A stretch of DNA of 64,000 bases from Triglochin maritima (lineage: Eukaryota; Streptophyta; Magnoliopsida; Alismatales; Juncaginaceae), in assembly GCA_963682175.1 (NCBI GenBank), contig OY821775.1, positions 248,001 through 312,000 of the forward strand. The letters run 5' to 3'. The notes under the pieces were generated by a model. That model had not been told where the DNA came from, ran no database searches, and saw only the letters and a program-made list of their open reading frames with translations. Shown piece by piece: positions 52,296-63,815 of this stretch. A program made the translations under genes and the position numbers. The first letter of the stretch is position 1. Each line of letters opens with the position of its first letter.

Positions 52296-54789
52296 TCAAA
52301 ACTTTCTCTTCCTATACCTACTACAGAAGATTACGAATGTCTCGGAGGCCAGACAAGCAGCCAGCAGTTCCCCCGGTGTACCCGTATACGGTAACCTTAC
52401 GTTATTTATTTGTTTTAAAAAAAAAATTAAAAAAAGTGGTCGGCGTCCGAGGGAGACGCCCCTCGCATGGGGCGGGCGTCCGAGGAAGTTGCTCCCCCCA
52501 TGGGGGGAAGAACGACCACGACCTCTACTCCCACTACCTGAAGATCGACCACTACCTCGCTCTGCATACTCAAACGCACTAGGGTCCCGTCGTGTCGACT
52601 TTCCCCTTGGTCGACCTCGTAGCTTTGTTTTTTCTGCAGGCTCTCTCAAATTCGAATGTTCAGGGTGTAGCTGCTCGAATAAAACCCGAGAGGCAGATCG
52701 AATTACGGTAGGGTCACTTCCTGCAATCTCATCAACTAGGCTGCGAAAATGTTCGGCGTCTTGAGCTGCCTGAGACACAAACTCTGTGTTCCCGGCTCCT
52801 TCCCCAATGACAAGTGTCCTCCAGAACGGATGAATCTGCTCTAAGTAAATTTCGTTGTCTGATTCAAGACATCCGCGGATGGTATATGCGCAAGGTATCC
52901 CATGAGAAGTCAGAAAAGCGCACTCGCAATGATATTCAACTTCATCATCTAACTGTTGCATTCTCTTCACCTCCTGACTCAGCAATTGCAAGCAGTGATG
53001 CGAAACTCGACCATTTATGTGACGATATAGAGCATGTCCGAAATTAGTCAAATTTCACCGTCTCGAGTCTTCAAGAAAGTTTCGAATATTCGTCAGCTGC
53101 ATTTCAATAGCCGCGTTCACGCGTTCGAAAAGAGTGTCCAGAGCTGCTGTCGATGTAGAAATCCACTCTTTTAGAGCCGAATGAGCACTTTCGACCCTAC
53201 AATTCGTGGTGTTCCCAAAATGAAGGACTTTGTTCGTCCAATTCAGCACAAACTTTTCTTTATGCACCAACCACGTCGTGTCCAGATACTCCGTGATAGC
53301 CGGCCACGATCTATACAAATCTTTCAGAGCATACAAAACTCTATCATACTCGGCTTCTGAAGTAGAAAGCATGATTTTCCTCCATCTTCCACGCCTCAAA
53401 GTCTCTGCCATCTGCTTATTCTTGCCGAATACGTGGTATGCATAGTTGAATACGTCTTTGTTGATGTGCCATGTGCAGAGTAAATGAGCAGAGTCAGGAA
53501 AAAACCTCTCTCACTGGTCGCATAAGGCCTAACTCCCGGTCTGTTATTATTGCAGTCGGGCTGACAGTCCCCAATAACAGATCTCGCAACTTCTCCATCA
53601 CCCACAGATAACTGGAGTAAGATTCATCCATCAAAATCGCATATCCAATAAGGGAATTCATGTTTGTTGGTGTGACCCCAATCATTTCGAACAAAGGCAT
53701 CTTATACTTGTTCGTCTTGTAAGTCGAATCCATGCAGATAACGAAAGGATATGTCCGCAACAACTGGACTGACGTCGGATGTGCCAAAAAGCATGAGTGA
53801 CGACATCAGTTTCTGGATCCGCCATAATCCAATGTAAGTACTCACACTGCACTGCTTGATAAAGAAACAGCTGGACGGGATTCCGGTCTTCAGATTTTGT
53901 CCTCCTCATGTAATCTCTGAAATTATAAATATGCCTTTGATTTGGATTGTCCTCCGGGAATTTTTCTTTTACTGCCTTCAAGATGTTTCGTGGTTTTGTT
54001 TGCGCCTCAGTCATATCACGAACAATCTTCTTCGCCCCAGAATTTAGACCACTAATTTGACGATGACCCTCTGGATAAACTGCCAGTTTGTGGTTGTGAT
54101 GTCCGTGACCACTATTAAAAACCACAACCCATCCATCACGATCTCGTCGCTCCACCACTTTTATTAAGAAACGGCAACCGCAACCCTTTCTTTTGGTGTT
54201 TCTTCGAAGTGCAGTATCCATATCCCGAGACTCCATTTGATTTCACCGGTCGCATCTCAAATAACAATCCATCCGACTATCTGATCTTGTTTTGTACGAC
54301 GACACGACCAAAAAAACCCAGCTCCGATAGCTACTTGTTTGACCCATTTACTTGCTTCATCAATTGTTGCAAAGATTTGTGTAGTTTGAAATAACTCACT
54401 GTAATCCACTCCATCACTACCGAAATCTTCCAACGGAACCTACAAAAATAAAATCGAAATTAAAAAAATCAAAAAATCCAGGCGTCTGGATTAGACGCCT
54501 ACCCCATGGGGGGCGTCTGAGTTAAACGCCCTCCCCAAGGGTGAGGCGTCTGCGTAGGACGCCTGACCGAATGGAAGGGCGTCTACTAAAGACGCCTTAC
54601 CCAAGGTGAGGACGTCTACATAAGACGCCTCTCCCATTGCGTAGGCGTCTGCGTTAGACGCCTCGGCCAAGGGGAGGACGTCCTACGCAGACGCCCTCAC
54701 CTTGGGGGAGGCGTCTAATGCAGACGCTCGGCCCAAAATTTGCCCCGCGCCAGGCTTACCTCACCGGATGCATCACCATCGCCAGACAT
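52296..54789 (-). pseudogene. MULE 1 transposase (FAR1/MuDR type)
   Basis: The ATG is at 54787-54789. Exon 1 (54789-54760) encodes MSGDGDASGE; intron 1 is 54759-54440; exon 2 begins at 54439. The product shows a FAR1-like DNA-binding region (GCGCRFLIKVVERRDRDGWVV, FNSGHGHHNH), MULE catalytic residues (Asp in CMDSTYKTNKY, Asp in IITDREL, Glu in RVESAHS) and a SWIM region (CEC..CAY). Frameshifts occur near 54290 (T-run), about 53790 and about 53495, plus an in-frame TGA at 53055-53057. The last SWIM His is Tyr. The C-terminus is Arg/Gly/Ser-rich. It is a decayed copy. Confidence 0.85.
54479..54735. repeat. GGCGTCTG-AGACGCC hairpin array in MULE 1 intron 1
   Basis: About seven units of roughly 38 bp each combine an inverted pair (GGCGTCTG, 4-6 bases, TAGACGCC) with a spacer like CTCCCCAAGGGG, itself nearly self-complementary. 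All lie within intron 1. A related stretch occurs at 52440-52510, in the region encoding the transposase C-terminus. Confidence 0.85.
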
Positions 54790-55410
54790 TTTCGTGGTGT
54801 TTTTACTGATAAATTATGAATATACAAGACCGTAGGCCTAATTTATAGACACGAGACGATATGGGTATTAAATATATTGTTAAGGGCAATTTGGTAATTT
54901 CAAGTGACGATTTAAGTAATTTTGGGACGACTTTAGTAGTTCATTGTCAGTGGAATAAATTGTCTGGCGTTGATGTAATGTTTGAGTTAAACCGACACGA
55001 TTAACAAAGTAACGCGCTTTGCTATAAAAAAGAAAAGAAAAAAAAGTAACAATTGCCATTTTCGATTTCAAATATAAATAGTGGTTGAACGCTCGCGTCA
55101 CGGACGCTGCTAACCCAGTCAGCACACTCGCTGATGTGGGCAACCCAGTCAGCAGACGCGGCTGAGTGCGCACTCAGCCCAGAAACATTTTTCCTTTCTT
55201 TGTTTAGTTTATTCCTCGTTTCGTACAAATTTCTCCATCCATCATTAATGCGTCTCAAATCACTCACTTCATTTTGGCGCTCCTACACAGACTGAAGACT
55301 AGTTACTCAACATCCGTCCTCCTATTTTTATCCCTTCTGTTTATTAATAAATTCATTTTTTTCCGAACACACACATCAGTCATTTTCTTTAGTTTCTGGA
55401 CTAGCGCATA

Positions 55411-55475
55411 ACTTATTCCGGACACAGTTACTATTTATTCCGGACAGTTAGAACACTTATTCCGGACAGACGTAC
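55411..55475 (+). repeat. TTATTCCGGACA motif cluster upstream of transposase
   Basis: Three copies of TTATTCCGGACA spaced about 25 bases apart lie 200-270 bases before the transposase ATG. They are in the same orientation as the array at 61745-62420. Confidence 0.85.
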
Positions 55476-55677
55476 TACTTACTGCTGATATTTTTTGCTG
55501 TTGTTTTATTTTCCCGATGCGTCCACCATCGCATTTAATGCTTTTCAAATCAGCACGTCCTCCGTCTTCTTTCTTATTCTTTGGCGCTTCACGGAGATAC
55601 GAATATGAGTGTCTTGGTTATTCCGATCCTACGAACCATTCCTTCTTCTCTCCTTCCTCCATTTGTATTGTACTGTA

Positions 55678-58170
55678 ATGGAACTCATAAATGTGTCCTC
55701 ACAACCGGCTCATGGCTCCAACGTCCCTCAAGTGATGATGAATTTTCCTTCCTTCGAAGAAGCCAAAGCATTTTACGTTTCATACGCCGATTCCTGTTGT
55801 TTTGGTGTGAAGATAAGGCAATCTCATTACGATCATGGTGTTGTAATACGGGCCACTCTTACTTGCTCAAAGGAGGGTAATGCTCCCGGAAACCAAGGTG
55901 AAGGTAGACCGAAACATAGGTTATCCGGTAGGGTCGAATGCACTGCTCGGATTAGGGTCTCCGGTAATCCATCCAGAGGCTACGTAATTAACTACGTAGA
56001 TCTCGAACATAATCACGCCATGCTGTCGGAAGACCAGATGCGCTTCCTCCGACAAAAACGATCCGTCCCGGAGTCCGCCATAGCACACATTTCGTGCAAT
56101 GATGCTGCCGGTATATCTGCCGTCAAGACCATGCAATCTTTTGTAGTCGAAGCTGGAGGTCACGATAAATTGTCTTTCAACGAGCGGGACCTAAGGTTAT
56201 TTATTCTCCACTTAACCTGGTTGAAGTTACGCATTTAGCTTTGTCAATAAAATTATGTTTCGCAGGAATGTTGTGAACGAGGTTAGAAACCTCAAAATGG
56301 GACCAGGAGATGCGCAAGCTATCCAAGATTATTTTATCAGTATGCAGAAGAATGATTCCCGCTTCTTTTACGTAATGGATATGGACGACGAAGACAGACT
56401 ACGAAATGTGTTCTGGGCCGACAGTCGTTCTCGAGCTGTTTACTCTTACTTTGGAGATGCAATATGTTTCGACACAACATACATAACAAACAAGTATGAC
56501 ATGCCTTTTGCCCCATTTGTGGGGGTAAATCACCACTACCAGTCCGTCCTACTCGGTTGCGCACTCCTCTCTTCCGAGACGACACAAAATTACATTTGGT
56601 TGTTCCAAACATGGTTGACGTGCATGAACGGTACGTGTTTTATTTTGTCCGGCTTTGTCCGTTTTACGTTATGTGCCTGTCCGGTTACCCTTTACGTTTG
56701 TCCGGTTTACGTATTTTGCTCGTCCGGTTTATCCCTTACGTCTGTCCGGTTTATCCCTTACGTCTGTCCGGTTTACGTTTTTTGCTCGTCCGGTTTATCC
56801 CTTACGTCTGTCCGGTTTACGTTTTTTGCTCGTCCGGTTTACCCTTGACGTCTGTCCGGTTTACGTTATTTCTGTCCGGATTAACATATGTTTTTATCTT
56901 GATCGCGTTGTGTGCAGATACAAGCCCCCCGGCGATCATAACAGACCAATGTGGCGCCATAGCTGCGGCTGTGAGGACTGTGTTCCCTAAAGCGCGGCAC
57001 AGATTTTGTATATGGCACATAATGAATAGGGCCCCTGTGAAGCTGCCCACGAAGTACCGGGAGCATACGTTGTTTGACCTCAACAACTGTGTATTCGATT
57101 CCAAGACTCTGGCAGAATTCGAGCGGAATTGGCAGGGTTTTCTAGATGATTTCGAGTTCCACAACAATAATTGGCTCCGATCCATTTATGCAATTCGAGA
57201 GCGCTGGGTACCTGCATTTTGGCGGGATTGTTTTTCCGCAGGAATGACATCAACCCAGAGAAGTGAGGGTATGAACACCTTCTTCGATAAGTACCTCACA
57301 TCAAGGACAACACTTAAGCAGTTCGTTCAACAATACGAACTCGCAGTACGCCACAAGTATGAGAAGGAAGCTCTGTCTGATTTCGATTGTCAGCATAAGG
57401 CTCCGCAATTGATTTCGAAATATCCATTCGAGAGGCAATTGGGCGAGTTGTATACGGTGGGTGTCTTCAAGAAGGTGCAGTTAGAAATTGGGAAGATGAT
57501 GTACTGCGACATCAAGGATGAGTTCAATGAGGACGACACATTGCACTTCAACGTGACCGAACATGTATTGACACATATCCTCCCATTGTCGAAACGGTTC
57601 ACAGTGCAAATTAGAGATGAGAAGTGGGTATGCGATTGCAGAATGTTTGATCACGTCGGTATCCTATGTTGTCACGTTTATGTTGTTATTGCCCGAATAC
57701 GTCCAAACGCGTTGCTCCCCGAGTCTTACATCGTCCACCGATGGAGGAAGGATATCCGAAGGAGCTATGGAGTCAAGTTTCCCCTTCAAAGTGGCATAAC
57801 GGGGAACGATGCGCTTCGTCGCCACGACGACATAATGGGTCGTGCGGTTTGGATCGCCGAGGCCGCTTTCGACTTAAACGACAGATATCTTCAGGCGGTA
57901 GAGGCACTTGAGTTGCCTAAGGAACGTATGCAACGACCTGATCCTGTGTTCGATGGTACATCCGTTCTCAATCCGGATAAGACAAGACGGAAAGGCAGAC
58001 CGCCGAGCAAACGACGGATTTCTTTGTCTGAGAAAATAATTAAAAGTAACGTTAAGAAAATCATCAGGAATAAGGTTCTACCCCCGTTACACCCTGCAGC
58101 ACCCAAACCGGGGGATCACGATTTCGATGACTGGGACATGAATTTGCATTACGAGGGAGTTCCTCCTTGA
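55678..58170 (+). CDS. FAR1-like MULE transposase, intact frame
   Basis: Exons 55678-56195, 56266-56630 and 56918-58170 join in phase to 711 residues without lesions; the ATG at 55678 is the first in frame. An N-terminal FAR1 DNA-binding domain (about 25-130; ECTARIRVSGNPSRGYVINYVDLEHNH) is followed by the MULE catalytic domain with Asp242 (CFDTTYITNKY), Asp304 (IITDQCG) and Glu411 (RSEGMN). A SWIM zinc finger C533-x-C535-x9-C545-x-H547 comes next, then an AT-hook-like KGRPPSKRR tail. It should cut and paste the surrounding element. FHY3/FAR1 transcription factors share this fold, but the TE context favours transposase. Intron 2 is filled with motif repeats. Confidence 0.88.
56635..56885 (-). 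repeat. CTGTCCGGTTTACG array in transposase intron 2
   Basis: About ten copies of GTCCGGTTTA or GTCCGGTTTAC are spaced 16-25 bases apart, filling most of the 287-base intron. The core TGTCCGG is shared with the arrays at 58330-59390 (same orientation) and 61745-62420 (opposite). Confidence 0.85.
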
Positions 58171-58329
58171 TTATTGTATTTGTCCTTGGTTGGAATTATT
58201 CCTATGTAATTTTGTTGAAAGTCATTGTATGTCTGTCCGTATTATTGCATAAGATTCAACTCTTTCTTTGCTTGTTCGTTTGTGAATTAATTTCTGATGG
58301 CGACAAATATATTTAAGTAATTTTGGTTT

Positions 58330-59390
58330 GTTGTATGCCTGTCCGGAATAAGTTATATTTATGTCCGGATTAAGTTACAAGTATGTCCAGATTACGTTAT
58401 ATGTCCGTCCGGATTACGATTCATTCATGTCCGGAACATAAAATTTGTCCGGAATAAGTGTATTTGTTGTCCGGAATAAGTGTATTTGTTGTTCAGAATA
58501 AGTGTATTTGTTGTCCGGTTTAAGAATAAAGTTTGTCCAGAAACGGAACATAAAGTTTTTTCCGGAATAAGTGTATTTGTTGTCCGGAATAAGTGTATTT
58601 GTTGTCCGGAATAAGTGTATTTGTTGTCCGGTTTAAGTGTATTTGCTGTCCGGAATAAGTGTATTTGTTGTCCGGAATAAGTGTATTTGTTGTCCGGTTT
58701 AAGAATAAAGTGTGTCCGGAATAAGTGTATTTGCTGTCCGGAATTAGTGTATTTGCTGTCCGAAATAAGTGTATTTGTTGTCCGGAATTAGTGTATTTGT
58801 TGTCCGGTTTAACAATAAAGTGTGTCCAGAAACGCAATAAAGTGTATTCACGAAGTGTGTATTTGTTGTCCGGTTTGGGTGTATTTGCTCACGAAGTGTT
58901 TAACAATAAAGTGTGTCTATTCCTCACGAAGTGTGTATTTGCTGTCCGGAATTAGACCATTTGCTGTCCGGAATAAGTGTATTTGTTGTCTGGAATAAGT
59001 GTATTTGTTGTCCGGAATAAGTGTATTCGTTGTCCGGTTTAAGAATAAAGTGTGTCCGGAATAAGTGTATTTGCTGTCCGGAATAAGTGTATTTGTTGTC
59101 CGGAATAAGTGTATTTGTTGTCCGGTCTAAGAATAAAGTGTGTCCGAAACGGAACATAAAGTTTGTCCGGAATAAGTGTATTTGCTGTCCGGAATAAGTG
59201 TATTTGTTGTTCGGAGTAAGTGTATTTGTTGTCCGGTTTAAGAATAAAGTTTGTCCAGAAACGGAACATAAAGTTTTTCCAGAATAAGTGTATTTGCTGT
59301 CCGGAATAAGTGTATTTGTTGTCCGGAATTAGTGTATTTGTTGTCCGTAATAGGTGTATTTGTTGTCCGGAATTAGTGTATTGATAATTT
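58330..59390 (-). repeat. TGTCCGGAATAAGTGTATTTG satellite-like array between convergent genes
   Basis: About 45-50 units, typically 20-22 bp, fill the 1.1 kb between the 3' ends of the transposase and Ulp1 genes. Variants (GTCCGGTTTAAGAATAAAGT, GTCCAGAAACGGAACATAAAG) recur in a fixed order, giving a higher-order repeat of roughly 100-160 bp. Confidence 0.92.
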
Positions 59391-60519
59391 ATACATGTAC
59401 TTGTATTGATAATTTAACCCAACACCAAATGTCCTTGTATTGATAAATCATTCAAATAGTCTATGTAATTTTAACATGTATAACTTTGTAAAAAAAAATT
59501 AAAACATCCAGAGTCGTTTATTGTTGATCGCACATCCCAGAGTCTTCGAGTAAGAAATTGGCCAAATCGCCTCTAAAACGGTGAATAACCTTGCTCTGCT
59601 TCGGCTGAGTCGGATCAACATTCTCCATCAAACGCTTCATCCAGTACAAAACGTATGGCCCGCAGTCGTTACTCCCCGGTTGCTGTCGTTGGCTACCCTT
59701 CCTCTCAACTCTCAGCGGCCACTCGACCTTCAACAACCCTCGCCAGAATCCCGCTATCTTAGACGCGGTGCATTCATGAGTTCCGACTAAACGGTTAGGA
59801 TTGTCACCTCTTTTAAGTGTGCGGGAGAGGCTGTTGTACTGAATGAACTCTGATCGAGGTCCGTGGGCAACGAACAGAGTCCAGTGGCCGGCCAAACAAC
59901 ATGGCTCTGCGATGATGACTTCCTCCACATTTATTCCTTCAATTTTTGGGAGTAAATAATCTTTCCTTATATCTTCTCACTGTCCCTCCACAATCATTTC
60001 CGATTCGAAGGATGATAAGCAGACCAACTTTTGTTGCCCTACTCTTCTGAGGAGTACCTCAATTAGGCCATCAAGAGTTTCGTTGGTGAATTCTGTTTTT
60101 GCCGAAATTATTTCCTTCAGATCACCCCTGCTGATATTGCTCAGAACCCCCCTCCAGATAATATCTTTGGCTTCTCGTTCGGGAGTCGTTGCATTCAATA
60201 AACGACGTACCTCATCATTGGTCAGCGTTCTCAAGGCGGTCGCATCCACATCGGGCCTCGTGGACGAAACATGGGCGGCCAATTCATCTTTCGCTATTTC
60301 GTCGGCCTCGTATATTTCTTCACTGGCTTCTTCGGCCCCCTTTGTTTTTGTGGTGGCTTCTTCGGCCTCCTTTATTTCTTCTTGTTTTTCTGCGGCATTC
60401 TTCTGTGCCTCATCTTGGCCAGATTTGCTTTGCGCTTCGTCTATATGTTCTGTGCGCAAGCGTGGTTTAATGGTCCGTATTTTTTGAGGGTGCAAAAGCG
60501 GTAGCGATACCACAACCTT

Positions 60520-61260
60520 CCTCTTTCTTTCCTGCTGTCTCCTCTTCTCTTCCTCCTCCCTCTTCTTCCTCTCCTCCTCCTCCTCCTCCTTCCTCGTCTT
60601 CTCTTCCTCCGCCCTCCTCTTCTTCTCTTCCTCCTCCCTCGTATTCCTCTCTTCCTCCTCCCTCCTCTTCTTCTCATCCTCCTCCCTTCTCTTCTTCTCT
60701 TCCTCCTCCCTCTCATCCTCCTCCCTCTTCTTCCTCTCTTCCTCCCTCCGCTTTTTTCTCTCTTCCTCCTCCCTCCTCATCCTCCTCTTCTTCTCTTCCT
60801 CCTCCCTCTTATTCCTCTCATCCTCCTCCCTCTTCTTCCTCTCTTCCTCCTCCCTCTTCTTCCTCTCTTCCTCCCTCCGTTTTTTTCTCTCTTCCTCCTC
60901 CCTCCTCATCCTCCTCTTCTTCTCATCCTCCTCCATCCTCTTCCTCGCATCCTCCTCCCTCTTATTCCTCTCATCCTCCTCCCTCCTCTTCTTCTCATCC
61001 TCCTCCCTCTTATTCCTCTCATCCTCCTCCCTCCTCTTCTTCTCATCATCCTCCCTCTTCTTCTTCTCTTGCTCCTCCATCTTCTTCCTTTCTTCCTCCT
61101 CTCTCTTCTCCCTCTCTTTCTCCTCTGTCTTCTTCCTCTCCTCCGCCTCCCTCTTATTTCTCTCTTCCTCCCTCTTTTCCCTCTCCTCCGCCTCCCTCTT
61201 ATTTCTCTCTTCCTCCTCCCTCTTTTCCCTCTCTTCCTCCTCCCCACGGACTCTCAGGCT
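60520..61260. repeat. Pyrimidine-rich imperfect repeat encoding charged coiled coil
   Basis: About 740 bases of CTCTTCCTCCTCCCTCTTCTT-like sequence on the plus strand (purines on the coding strand), made of 12-, 15- and 24-base subrepeats. The strand asymmetry could allow triplex DNA. Confidence 0.9.
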
Positions 61261-61744
61261 ACGACACTCTTCTTGAGAGATCCGGAGTTCTTCCTCCAGG
61301 TTGTTAATTTTAACGGTTGCCTCCCTAAGTGCTGCTTCGGCTCGCAGCCAATTCGTCTTCACCTCACTAAGTTCCAACTCTTGTAGCAGTGGGTCACATG
61401 GAATGCTGCATTCACTGAGTTGTACCCTTGGTAGAGTGGATGTTGAAGGTGTTTCCTTCGAGGCAACCTTTGCTGCGGGAGTTGCTTCTGCAGTAGGAAA
61501 TTGATCCTCTGACAACAGTGAATGCTCCCGTGCACTGAGTTTTGGGGTGCCCTTCAACTCAAATTGACCCGAGTAAATCCGGGACAAGTTGATGCCTCGA
61601 TCTTCCCATTTTCTAAGGATTTGGCGTCTGCTAAACATTTCTGTCCAACACTTGAACCGTGGAAATGCTGACCGGGGATCCCCTAATTTGAACTTCTCGC
61701 AAAGCCACACCTGAAAACAGGAATGAGTTAAAAACCAGAAACAT

Positions 61745-62420
61745 AACTTCCCCAGGACAGACACAACTCTTATTCCGGACAGACGCAACACTATTCCGGA
61801 CAAACACAACTCTTATTCCGGACAGACGCAACTCTTATTCCGGACAGACACAACACTATTCCGGACAGACAGAATACTTATTCCGGACATAAACAAACTC
61901 TTATTCCGGACAGACGCAACACTATTCCGGACAGACAAAATACTTATTCCGGACATAAACCAACTCTTATTCCGGACAGACGCAACACTATTCCGGACAG
62001 ACAAAATACTTATTCCGGACAGACGCAACTCTTATTCCGGAGAGACGCAACACTATTCTGGACAGACAAAATACTTATTCCGGACAGACGCAACTCTTAT
62101 TCCGGACAGACGCAACACTATTCCGGACAGACAAACTCTTATTCCGGACAAACAAAATTCTTATTCCGGACAGACAAAATACTTATTCCGGACAGACACA
62201 ATACGTATTCCGGACAAACAAGATACTATTTCGGACAGATAAAATACTATTCCGGACATACATAATACTTTTCCCGGATAACCTCAAGACACTTATTCCG
62301 GACAGAGACAACACTATTCCGGACAGACACAAGACTTATCCCGGACAGACAAAACACTTATTCCGGACATAAACCAACACTACTTCGGACTAACACAACA
62401 CTCATTCCGGACCAAGATGC
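61745..62420 (+). repeat. CTTATTCCGGACAGACGCAA array in Ulp1-gene intron 2
   Basis: About 32 units of 20-22 bp fill the 714-base intron (62424-61711) almost end to end. Orientation on the plus strand is CTTATTCCGGACA, opposite to 58330-59390. Read on each gene's own sense strand, intron copies in both genes run TGTCCGG. Confidence 0.92.
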
Positions 62421-63353
62421 TTACTTGTAATACGGCAACACAACCATACACGTAGCCCTGCTTCATAGAGAAGTTCCCTGACAATCTCCTCCTCGAGAGG
62501 TTCCGTTGGGCTTCCTCCAGTCCTTCAACCAAGAAAGTGTGAACCGCATTTGCCCACGCATATCTCTTGAGGCGCTTGAGGTTCTTAAGGTGCTTCGTGT
62601 ACCACGCTTTACTTCGCAGTGATCCATCGAAGAACAAAAAATGATTGAAAATCGTAGAAATAAGGAGTCGGACGTGCTCCTCCTCCTCGCCCATCTTGCT
62701 CGTGGCGGTAAGATGACCCAGTAGTTGGGTGTTGTCGAGGTTCACCCCGTCACGTTTCTCTACGTACATTGCTTCCATATCCACTCTCTGCCCATGTGCT
62801 CTTAGTCTAAGTAGAAGGGCGACGTCTTCTACCGTAAATGGGACCACCCCAGTGGCTATTCTCAGACCGACTTCAGTGGCGTCGAAGTGTTCGACGAACC
62901 AACCCAGTATCTCGTTGTCAGTTGTGACGTGAGGAAAGGAGAGGAAGTGGCCGAAAGGCGTCCGTTGGAAGACATTTTTCTCCTCCTCCTTCATCCGGTC
63001 GAACTGCTTGTGAAGGGCCGTGAAACCGCACTTGGTTTCGCGGAAGTAGTACGTGCTTCCCTTAAACCACCAAAAAAAATTGTTAGAGGCCAATAATGAA
63101 CCTTAAAATGAACCAGAAAGAACGTGGTTGACACAACACCTGTGCGGCTACAATTTCAGGAGCGATGGAGGTTTCAGGTAGAGAAGGATCCATTTTCGCC
63201 TTGTTATAATTTTCGTTCGACTAAAACAGGAATGAAGGTTTTGGATGAGCGTATGGAAAGGAACTCCGGCTGAAATGGGGAATGGAAAAGGAGAAGACTT
63301 GGGAGGAAAGTTACTCGAATATTGTCCCGCCGCTAATGATGTACGTGAAGTTT

Positions 63354-63409
63354 AACCGTCTAATCGTGATTTCGGGAAATGAACCGTCTAATCGTGATTT
63401 CGGGAAATG
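63354..63409. repeat. 28-bp tandem duplication upstream of the Ulp1 gene
   Basis: Two perfect adjacent copies of a unit starting AACCGTCTAATCGTG lie about 160-215 bases before the Ulp1-gene ATG, inside MULE 2. Confidence 0.88.
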
Positions 63410-63524
63410 AACTGTCGCACCCAATAATTCGTAATTTACTTTTCCCCGCGCAGAAGTTTTGGCTGACTGGACACTGAACTGGCAGCTGACTTGTCTATCT
63501 ACGTAGGAAGCGTCACGGACGCGC

Positions 63525-63558
63525 GCGTCCGTGTATAACTCCATTTATACACGGACGC
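63525..63558. repeat. 14-bp hairpin at the right end of MULE 2
   Basis: GCGTCCGTGTATAA and TTATACACGGACGC are separated by six bases, only four bases before the proposed right end. It is adjacent to another inverted pair (GTCACGGACGC / GCGCGTCCGTG) starting near 63512. Confidence 0.9.
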
Positions 63559-63562
63559 ACTC

Positions 63563-63571
63563 ATATAAATA
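63563..63571 (+). promoter_or_regulatory. TATA box of the CacyBP/SIP-like gene and MULE 2 target duplication
   Basis: ATATAAATA lies 107 bases before the ATG, followed by a GA-rich leader (63601-63619), good spacing for a plant core promoter. The identical 9-mer at 55072-55080 is the other side of the MULE 2 insertion. Confidence 0.6.
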
Positions 63572-63677
63572 AGGAATTTAGTTTGGGTTCGGAGAAGATT
63601 CGAGAGAGAGAGAGAGAGTGAAGAAGGAAGCCTTTTGGAAAACCCTAGGTCGTTGGAAGATTGGAAGAAGATTTGGA

Positions 63678-63815
63678 ATGGCGATAACAGCAGCAGCAGC
63701 AGCAGTTACAGATGTGAAACTGGAGTTGGAAGAGCTGAAGCACCTCCACTCCATCGCCAAACGCCCCAGAGTCCTCTCCCTTCTCTCCGCCGAGATCAAC
63801 TCTCTCCAACAAAAG
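63678..63815 (+). CDS. CacyBP/SIP (Siah-interacting)-like protein, first exon
   Basis: ATG at 63678; 46 codons end at a GT donor after 63815 (AAAAG|GTACTT), phase 0. The peptide has an Ala run (coded by GCA repeats), then LELEELKHLHSIAKRPRVLSLLSAEINSLQQK, which fits the N-terminal Siah_Int/CacyBP dimerisation helix pair. Later exons (CS and SGS domains in this family) would lie beyond the window. The family link rests on one short exon, so it is tentative. Confidence 0.5.

Follow-up and report, generated by a model that had tools for sequence, protein, structure and literature searches.

The window analyzed here, a stretch of 64,000 nucleotides from Triglochin maritima (GCA_963682175.1, contig OY821775.1, positions 248,001-312,000 of the forward strand), includes a transposable element with two convergent genes and several arrays of a short motif. 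Its features are the following, with all coordinates referring to the window:

55072..55080, plus strand: left copy of the target-site duplication, ATATAAATA, 9 bp identical to 63563-63571
55081..63562, plus strand: whole element, a FAR1-type MULE with an accessory PMD-Ulp1 gene, bounded by the 9-bp duplication
55095..55107, plus strand: subterminal box GCGTCACGGACGC, left copy, recurring at 63510 and also in derivatives
55412..55468, minus strand: 5' noncoding motif group, three copies at 22-bp steps
55678..56195, plus strand: transposase exon 1, FAR1 DNA-binding domain (PF03101, 55.3 bits; spliced frame)
56266..56630, plus strand: transposase exon 2, first part of the MULE domain (PF10551, 62.2 bits; spliced frame)
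56640..56885, plus strand: 12-unit array of the TGTCCGGTTTAC version in intron 2 of the transposase gene, 8 of its 11 steps being 22 bp
56918..58170, plus strand: transposase exon 3, remaining MULE domain and SWIM zinc finger (PF10551, 40.5 bits; PF04434, 30 bits)
58340..59376, plus strand: 42-unit array separating the two convergent genes, 32 of its 41 steps being 22 bp
59518..61710, minus strand: PMD-Ulp1 exon 3, with the PMD end, a K/E-rich repeat and Ulp1/Peptidase_C48 (profile match; TGA at 59977-59979)
61769..62413, minus strand: 30-unit array in intron 2 of the PMD gene, 27 of its 29 steps being 21-23 bp
62425..63060, minus strand: PMD-Ulp1 exon 2, encoding the larger part of the plant mobile domain (PF10536, 27.6 bits alone, 43.3 spliced)
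63140..63193, minus strand: PMD-Ulp1 exon 1, start codon at 63193 (spliced frame)
63510..63522, plus strand: subterminal box GCGTCACGGACGC, right copy of the left box
63563..63571, plus strand: right copy of the target-site duplication, 9 bp identical to 55072-55080

An initial sequence-only reading had described the element as a non-TIR MULE bracketed by a 9-bp duplication. The duplication was confirmed as a perfect ATATAAATA pair flanking 55081-63562; its right copy looks like the TATA box of the host gene downstream. The lack of TIRs holds for the window copy, whose terminal 250 bp are free of inverted matches of at least 10 bp; in a derivative (L008), however, GCGTCACGGACGC boxes, as read by eye, are inverted near both ends. 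A 9-bp duplication together with an absent or degenerate TIR is the structure expected of the VANDAL clade, and the element has it. Thirty-nine further copies align rightward from 55084, over about 297 bp at 97-99%. The left end of the window copy is unusual in having GTGGTTGAACGC directly 3' of the duplication, while the seven other copies compared all have ATGTTTGTTGAACGC there; GGAAAATGTTTGTTGAACGC is found in four of these seven and in two additional copies. The GCGTCACGGACGC box is probably a transposase-binding site. It or its complement is retained in four of six stretches read from a sister subfamily (B, see below), although the array motif differs there.

The reading frame of the FAR1/MULE transposase was found to be intact, as had been proposed. 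Its three exons splice into a stop-free product of 711 amino acids, in which the FAR1, MULE and SWIM domains all score above the Pfam cut-offs. The nearest named relatives are of the FAR1/FRS type, and the enzyme is FAR1-type overall (Jittery or Hop group). Out of 2123 relatives, the 120 that were listed all lack PF03108, the mark of MuDR-type transposases. In a published MULE table, FAR1 is listed for the plant Jittery group and for half of one Hop subgroup, and is not listed for VANDAL, group 45 (PMC6446971). A VANDAL-type transposase was rejected on the grounds of domain content, relatives and published classification, namely the PF03101 match of 55.3 bits, the listed relatives and this table. 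The FAR1 N-terminus, MULE domain and SWIM finger are those of a Jittery/FAR1-type transposase. The Jittery type is listed with a single ORF (PMC6446971), whereas the PMD-Ulp1 gene is a second gene of the element. The transposase differs between subfamilies, with values of 73% for the FAR1 exon against L067 and 69% for exon 3 against L065.

The accessory gene, located on the minus strand and convergent with the transposase gene, had been read as a DUF1985-like gene with a Ulp1 domain. The latter is supported by a Peptidase_C48/Ulp1 match of 27.8 bits (cut-off 20.7). The DUF1985 identity was dropped: in the profile search the spliced N-terminus produced no match to DUF1985 (PF09331) at E<=10 and instead matched PMD (PF10536) with 43.3 bits, over the cut-off of 34.9. 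Exon 2 by itself is under that cut-off in both the window copy (27.6 bits) and subfamily B (20.2 bits). With a FAR1-type transposase and a PMD accessory protein in which no DUF1985 was found, membership of the element in the VANDAL/VANC group to which it had been assigned is not supported. The Ulp1 scores across the family were 27.8, 25.3 and 31.2 bits, and 17.1 bits, below the cut-off, for the protein P0001. At the putative catalytic positions, His, Gln and Cys are kept and Asn occupies the place of the expected Asp in all four aligned sequences. The proposed fusion of Ulp1 to the presumed targeting protein is borne out across the family, the segment being stop-free in L048, L050, L051, L065 and P0001, but in the window copy the domain is broken by the TGA at 59977-59979, which is absent in the six other copies read.

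A protein search with residues 40-275 of the accessory protein alone returned no relative at E<=10 among 1742 candidates, and residues 18-360 returned one, P0001, which begins past the PMD core. Against solved structures, PMD gave no match at E<=10, and the Ulp1 queries hit nothing beyond coiled-coil or chance chains. A single-sequence AlphaFold model of PMD exon 2 had a pLDDT of 45.5 and was excluded from the evidence. PMD is under purifying selection between subfamilies, with exon dN/dS of 0.18-0.25 at dS of 0.69-1.21. Pairs of A copies (three per exon) gave ratios spread from 0.19 to 2.26. Rows named CCN were excluded because they were out of frame, with 10 stops in the query, and the ratio for Ulp1 between A and B was omitted because dS was saturated.

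The motif TGTCCGGAATAAG is repeated in the window element mostly at 22-bp steps. Because the arrays arise by tandem duplication, this spacing does not independently prove helical phasing. The TCCGGA-centred motif recognized earlier is real: the window has 63 TCCGGA compared to 9.6 +/- 3.5 in whole-window shuffles, and 56 of them are inside the element (two in exons). Allowing up to one mismatch, TGTCCGGAATAAG occurs 46 times; with up to three, it occurs 82 times in the element (five in exons) and 12 times in the 55 kb outside. The earlier claim that the motif is confined to noncoding DNA stands for all 33 exact copies of TGTCCGGAATAAG and for all 66 TGTCCGG of the element, which are found in 3463 noncoding bp, with 0 in 5019 exon bp and three in the 55,518 bp outside the element. 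The estimate of about a hundred motifs was somewhat too high for the window copy (33 exact, 82 with up to three mismatches); six other copies have 78-106 TGTCCGG each in the 9 kb read per copy.

The exact motif occurs 44,323 times in the genome compared to two occurrences of the reversed pattern and about 29 predicted from base composition. The window shuffles and the reversed-pattern count led us to reject a chance origin. The motif was found in all six other copies read, and their 543 TGTCCGG were, without exception, located beyond the mapped exon blocks, which do not include the K/E-repeat part of exon 3. Intergenic array stretches are longer in these copies than in the window copy, and there are gene-poor derivatives made up largely of arrays. 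Thirty four-kb loci at canonical PMD matches (117 scored) had no TGTCCGG, and a motif common to other PMD elements was therefore rejected. These observations agree with the suggested logic of an element-encoded protein paired with the element's own multiplied motif. A short motif multiplied in its own noncoding DNA is a property of VANC systems that this element has; that its protein reads the motif is what we infer.

In subfamily B, whose PMD is 63% identical (dN/dS 0.23), the motif version is TGTTCGGAWTAAG, one core base away from TGTCCGGAATAAG, with 26,958 exact occurrences genome-wide and two of the control. Two B elements with PMD were read, and they contain 77 and 27 changed motifs and none of the original version. 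L065 has 39 TTCCGAACA and 0 TTCCGGACA, and L070 has 27 TCCGAACA and 0 TCCGGACA. None of the 77 changed motifs of L065 falls in a mapped exon: transposase intron 2 holds 29 of them, the intergenic DNA 25 and the PMD intron 23. The search of other copies that had been proposed as a check showed a sister subfamily in which PMD has diverged and the whole set of motifs has been exchanged. The PMD clade matches the prevailing motif version in 11 of the 11 PMD-bearing elements read (seven A, two A' and two B), a count that includes L047, whose PMD exon 2 sits just past the stretch read and was taken from a separate listing. Protein-motif co-evolution is unreplicated in these data because the A/B contrast represents one motif change on one branch. 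Mixed derivatives carry both versions, four original and 17 changed in L002, and five and 28 in L068.

Because the transposase also diverged between subfamilies A and B, as the motif did, it may be the transposase, or a TNPA-like activity, that reads the arrays, which would then serve transposition or promoter control and not PMD-based protection. TNPA of En/Spm is a known case of clustered binding sites and of demethylation driven by a transposase. However, the large arrays are not subterminal; they occupy introns and the DNA separating the genes, at distances of up to about 4 kb from the element's ends. A different box, GCGTCACGGACGC, is found near the ends and persisted in four of six subfamily B stretches despite the change of array motif, and the conserved PMD-Ulp1 gene would be left unaccounted for. 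We consider this explanation unlikely.

The arrays could also be neutral minisatellites carried along by the spreading element, their subfamily differences being the product of drift and homogenization. Tandem units do grow and shrink, as seen in the longer intergenic array of other copies, and unanchored core positions were significantly less variable than spacers in five of ten arrays and not significantly so in the other five. Nevertheless, the array consensus keeps 11-13 of 13 core positions in nine of ten arrays (9/13 in the transposase intron of the window copy), although synonymous divergence between the subfamilies approaches saturation (dS 0.69-1.21). Within an element, the separate arrays have the core in common and switch it jointly, and exons are free of TGTCCGG, all of which makes neutral spread rather improbable. 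Reading of the motif by a host factor such as a transcription or chromatin protein, with PMD-Ulp1 acting elsewhere, e.g., in sequence-blind removal of SUMO from silencing factors, would suit the conserved Ulp1 domain, whose retention of His, Gln and Cys across four sequences suggests an enzymatic role, and the fact that no directly read DNA motif was found for host PMD proteins in the literature as accessed, but we regard it as very unlikely since a shared reader leaves two motif versions that follow PMD clade in one genome unexplained.

Sasaki (2022, EMBO J) reportedly described how DUF1985, DUF287 and Ulp1 were gained and lost, as well as motif density and helical periodicity. Judging from the accessible text, VANC targets are noncoding, tandem, short motifs that co-evolve (PMC5735166), a pattern that the arrays described here resemble. 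VANDAL21 and VANDAL6 of Arabidopsis are, in the excerpts available, likewise MULEs without clear TIR, with a 9-bp duplication, an accessory gene whose protein has repeated peptide stretches and varies more than the transposase, and tandem short motifs in intron, intergenic and terminal noncoding DNA that differ by family (PMC5735166, PMC10398659). Unlike these, the present element combines a PMD accessory protein, in which no DUF1985 was found, with a FAR1-type transposase, and the motifs given there, YAGTATTAY for VANC21 and AGTTGTCC/AGTTGTAC for VANC6, differ from TGTCCGGAATAAG (PMC5735166, PMC10398659). VANDALs carrying KAONASHI/KIU are described in partial texts as having, like this element, an antisense accessory gene with a Ulp1 domain, and the motif-specific targeting that is proposed here (PMC13317346, PMC2528002); they have VANC domains in place of PMD, and they differ from this element with its FAR1-type transposase. 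The section consulted of a 2026 review credits earlier work with showing that Ulp1-carrying VANC genes cause motif-specific hypomethylation; fusion of Ulp1 to a VANC protein is therefore already known (PMC13317346).

Among FAR1-type elements, Jittery group 36 likewise has the FAR1 N-terminus and SWIM (PMC6446971), and Jittery-like MULEs of melon and grapevine have Ulp1 sequence (PMC2528002), according to the passages at hand. The plant Jittery subgroup differs in having one ORF, no PMD and a duplication of 8 bp or unstated (PMC6446971), and those passages mention no motif arrays in Jittery-group MULEs (PMC6446971, PMC2528002). A literature search of titles and abstract openings found none described for a PMD- or FAR1-type MULE. 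PMD is also carried on MULEs by the PMD-C proteins of grasses and Amborella, where, in the available portion, it forms a fusion with the transposase and no target motif is named (PMC5418596); here it is encoded by a separate convergent gene, is fused to Ulp1 and is accompanied by arrays. The same source had speculated, on other grounds, about an anti-silencing role of PMD proteins captured by MULEs (PMC5418596). The host PMD proteins MAIN and MAIL1, as covered in the excerpts seen, favor silencing and not its opposite, and a 'DOWN' promoter motif occurs in genes that depend on them. This behavior of MAIN and MAIL1, as well as the mixing of motif versions in some derivatives, speaks against the explanation that we prefer.

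That explanation, to which we assign a probability of about 60%, is that the PMD-Ulp1 protein mediates sequence-specific, VANC-like anti-silencing in a FAR1-type MULE. The transposase would move the element, and the convergent gene would produce a PMD-K/E-repeat-Ulp1 protein that recognizes TGTCCGGAATAAG in arrays stepping about two helical turns (22 bp) across introns, intergenic and 5' noncoding DNA. Binding at many sites at once would counteract silencing, possibly with SUMO-directed protease activity, so that the arrayed regions stay free of, or leave, DNA methylation and silencing. The element as a whole would be protected in this way, as would its gene-poor derivatives, with unrelated DNA unaffected, and protein and motif would change jointly by subfamily. 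By its layout, the element resembles an independently assembled counterpart of the self-only shielding from silencing known in Arabidopsis. More tentatively, sequence-specific anti-silencing may have had a second origin, in a MULE of the FAR1 type, where PMD would be the motif-reading part and its specificity would shift with the arrays of each subfamily.

If this is true, PMD, a domain of unknown function, would acquire a biochemical role, and there would be a hint at the origin of the silencing role of the host proteins MAIN and MAIL1. Two PMD-Ulp1 clades, two motifs one base apart and tens of thousands of native sites coexist in one genome; therefore, both the reader and its change of specificity can be tested, and the anti-silencing role suggested for MULE-borne PMD proteins becomes accessible to simple binding and methylation assays. 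Confirmation would extend target-specific anti-silencing past the DUF1985-type VANC proteins and would make motif-protein pairs usable as locus-specific epigenome tools.

The element at 55081-63562 is bracketed by a perfect 9-bp duplication, ATATAAATA, and carries two convergent genes. On the + strand, three exons, set manually from open frames and GT/AG borders, join into a transposase of 711 residues without a stop, in which FAR1 (55.3 bits), MULE (62.2 and 40.5 bits, in two parts) and SWIM (30 bits) domains were recognized. Both the duplication and the intact FAR1/MULE frame agree with the sequence-only reading. The gene on the - strand, also of three exons, encodes a protein with an N-terminal plant mobile domain (PMD; 43.3 bits, cut-off 34.9). 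A long K/E-rich repeat comes next, and then a Ulp1/Peptidase_C48 domain (27.8 bits). The N-terminus had been taken for DUF1985-like; DUF1985 gave no match there at E<=10, and the domain is a PMD. The assignment to the VANDAL type was not sustained either, because by its transposase the element is FAR1-type.

The element lies about 115 bp upstream (63563-63680) of the start codon (63678) of a host gene whose product has the N-terminal domain of Siah-interacting proteins (PF09032, 28.9 bits, cut-off 23.5), and the duplicated target looks like the TATA box of this gene. Immediately to the left of the element, at 54480-54716, there are tandem repeats of about 33 bp based on AGGCGTCT...AGACGCC. Right after the target duplication (55081-55083) the window copy reads GTGGTTGAACGC, whereas all seven other copies compared (L040-L046) read ATGTTTGTTGAACGC. 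It seems that a copy with an altered end has transposed into this site.

The window copy has 33 exact occurrences of the motif TGTCCGGAATAAG, or 46 if one mismatch is allowed, always in noncoding DNA of the element, where they form four groups: in the 5' noncoding DNA, in transposase intron 2, between the convergent genes and in intron 2 of the PMD gene. The array in transposase intron 2 is of the TGTCCGGTTTAC version, which has 9 of 13 positions in common with TGTCCGGAATAAG. The restriction to noncoding DNA, already pointed out from the sequence alone, was confirmed with TGTCCGG, which was found 66 times in the 3463 noncoding bases of the element, never in its 5019 exon bases and three times in the 55,518 window bases outside it. 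TCCGGA occurs 63 times across the window (9.6 in shuffles), seven times outside the element and twice in its exons. The most frequent step between motif units was 22 bp in each of the four groups.

Steps between motif units in the window copy
Intergenic array: 22-bp steps, 32 of 41
PMD intron array: 22-bp steps, 15 of 29; 21-bp steps, 10 of 29
Transposase intron array: 22-bp steps, 8 of 11
5' noncoding group: 22-bp steps, 2 of 2

The observed/expected CpG ratio was 1.3-1.9 in the arrays and 0.70 outside the element. The raised ratio may be a mere effect of the CG within each motif, or the arrays may have been spared long methylation.

The motif has multiplied in the genome. The exact 13-mer occurs 20,885 + 23,438 times in the 1.06-Gb assembly, which its genes mark as that of a plant and where base composition predicts about 29 and the reversed control gave 2 + 0. 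Among the best 40 of 1560 candidates scored, the left 300 bp of the element had 39 further copies at 97-99% identity. PMD exon matches, the best 150 of 3710 candidates scored, were all at least 95% identical, and by hand count 135 of these 150, which as best candidates are not a random sample, had no stop. Six other copies, examined over 9 kb each, all contain arrays (34-56 exact motifs and 78-106 TGTCCGG each), and none of their 543 TGTCCGG lies in the mapped exon blocks, which leave out the K/E-repeat part of exon 3 and exons past 9 kb. All 10 distinct motif places examined, on contig C1, belong to this MULE family or its derivatives. Of 10464 candidates for canonical PMDs in other genes or elements of the genome, 117 were scored as strong matches, a lower bound, and most of these have open frames; TGTCCGG was absent from the 30 such loci searched (L009-L038). 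The TGA that breaks the Ulp1 domain of the window copy at 59977-59979 was found in none of the six other copies, and the Ulp1 segment is free of stops in copies L048, L050 and L051; the PMD exon of the last two holds a stop. The proposed fusion of Ulp1 to the presumed targeting protein stands for these stop-free segments and not for the window copy itself.

The motif switches with the PMD clade. A version with one core base changed, TATTCCGAACAGAC, has 26,958 exact copies genome-wide (control, 2). In L065, an element of the sister subfamily B, protein identity to subfamily A (the window copy and its near-identical copies) is 69% in transposase exon 3, 86% in exon 2, 63-64% in the PMD exon and 50% in Ulp1. 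Transposase exon 1 was not found in L065, which is therefore incomplete; open frames are kept in PMD exon 2, in exon 3 (607 codons) of that gene and in transposase exon 3. L065 holds 39 TTCCGAACA and no TTCCGGACA, and the 8-base core of the changed motif occurs 77 times, never in mapped exons: transposase intron 2 holds 29, the intergenic stretch 25 and the PMD intron 23. A second B element, L070, with a PMD 98.6% identical to that of L065, has 27 TTCCGAACA and no TTCCGGACA, while in the seven A elements the counts are 48-79 for TTCCGGACA and 0-2 for TTCCGAACA. Two diverged copies (A'), both with stops or frameshifts, have 10 TTCCGGACA and no TTCCGAACA (L001, PMD 67-68% identical to A) and 17 and 1 (L006, larger PMD pieces 55-67% identical to A). 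The PMD clade matches the prevailing motif version in 11 of 11 PMD-bearing elements examined, counting L047, whose PMD exon 2 lies outside the stretch examined and is present in the genome-wide match list. In PMD divergence L001 stands closer to B (dS 0.69) than it does to A (dS 1.1-1.2), so the simplest account of the B motif is one change on the B branch; the agreement of clade and motif is consistent, but it reflects this one event. This change turns the palindromic CCGG of the A motif into CCGA, keeping the CG and losing one of two CHG cytosines.

Arrays are also found in gene-poor derivatives. L008, of 2.05 kb, has its own 9-bp duplication, TTTTTCTCT, and a long array; a translated search found no coding sequence in it, and it was placed in the family by motif and end boxes. 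Of the queries used, L068 and L069 retain no more than about 48 transposase codons, with 28 changed and 5 original motifs in the former and 29 and 0 in the latter. Gene-poor L002 (C1:1215554-1218566) has both versions in adjoining arrays, 4 original and 17 changed, as if it could be addressed by proteins of two subfamilies.

The proteins are conserved. Between subfamilies, dN/dS was 0.18-0.25 for the PMD exon (at dS 0.69-1.21) and 0.03-0.21 for the transposase exons; the Ulp1 dS was saturated. Among A copies dN/dS ranged from 0.19 to 2.26, a spread that is expected with few differences between young copies and is uninformative either way. At what we take to be the catalytic positions of Ulp1, the expected Asp is Asn in all four aligned sequences (L065:4979-5710, L048, L050 and P0001, a relative from another contig), across 50% divergence, and His, Gln and Cys are kept in all four, perhaps forming a putative His-Asn-Cys site. 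The array consensus kept 11-13 of the 13 core positions in nine of 10 arrays across subfamily distances, which exceeds what neutral repeats should show. Against this sign of non-neutrality, the comparison of unanchored core positions with spacers inside single arrays was significant at 0.05 in only five of 10 arrays, and in none of the four B arrays.

Transposase relatives P0002 and P0003 (jgi and ena contigs) are 94% identical, over 417 residues in the one and 408 in the other; after them come transposases of Cuscuta and Actinidia, at 39%. P0001 (jgi contig) shares 82% with the C-terminal part of the PMD-Ulp1 protein over 343 residues. Across these three contigs, possibly from different genomes, conservation is higher for the transposase than for the accessory protein, as PMC5735166 describes for VANDAL. 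The MULE table of PMC6446971 gives FAR1 N-termini and one ORF for the plant Jittery group; the window element differs in its second gene, PMD-Ulp1. The same source lists FAR1 in half of one Hop subgroup, and PMD, often antisense, in VANDAL, MuDR and related groups. Jittery-like MULEs that carry Ulp1 were reported from grapevine and melon (PMC2528002), VANC genes carrying Ulp1 are already known (PMC13317346), and so is MULE-captured PMD, for which an anti-silencing role is speculation (PMC5418596). A title- and abstract-level literature search, which did not cover the main VANC-diversity study, found no description of a FAR1-type MULE with PMD-Ulp1 and arrays.

The arrays could be read by the transposase or by the accessory protein. 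The box GCGTCACGGACGC is kept in four of six B stretches (L065, L066, L068 and L070) and missing from L067 and L069; retained while the array motif changes, it is a better candidate transposase site than the arrays, which counts against the transposase as array reader. The closest described logic to the PMD-Ulp1 and array design is that of the VANC proteins of VANDAL. According to PMC5735166, VANC21 binds a short motif tandemly repeated in the noncoding DNA of its own family and causes methylation to be lost there, and VANC6 has motifs other than those of VANC21. By analogy, we propose that the PMD-Ulp1 protein most likely acts on its own family as VANC does on VANDAL: the PMD would read the array motif, and binding of the protein at the arrays would relieve silencing.
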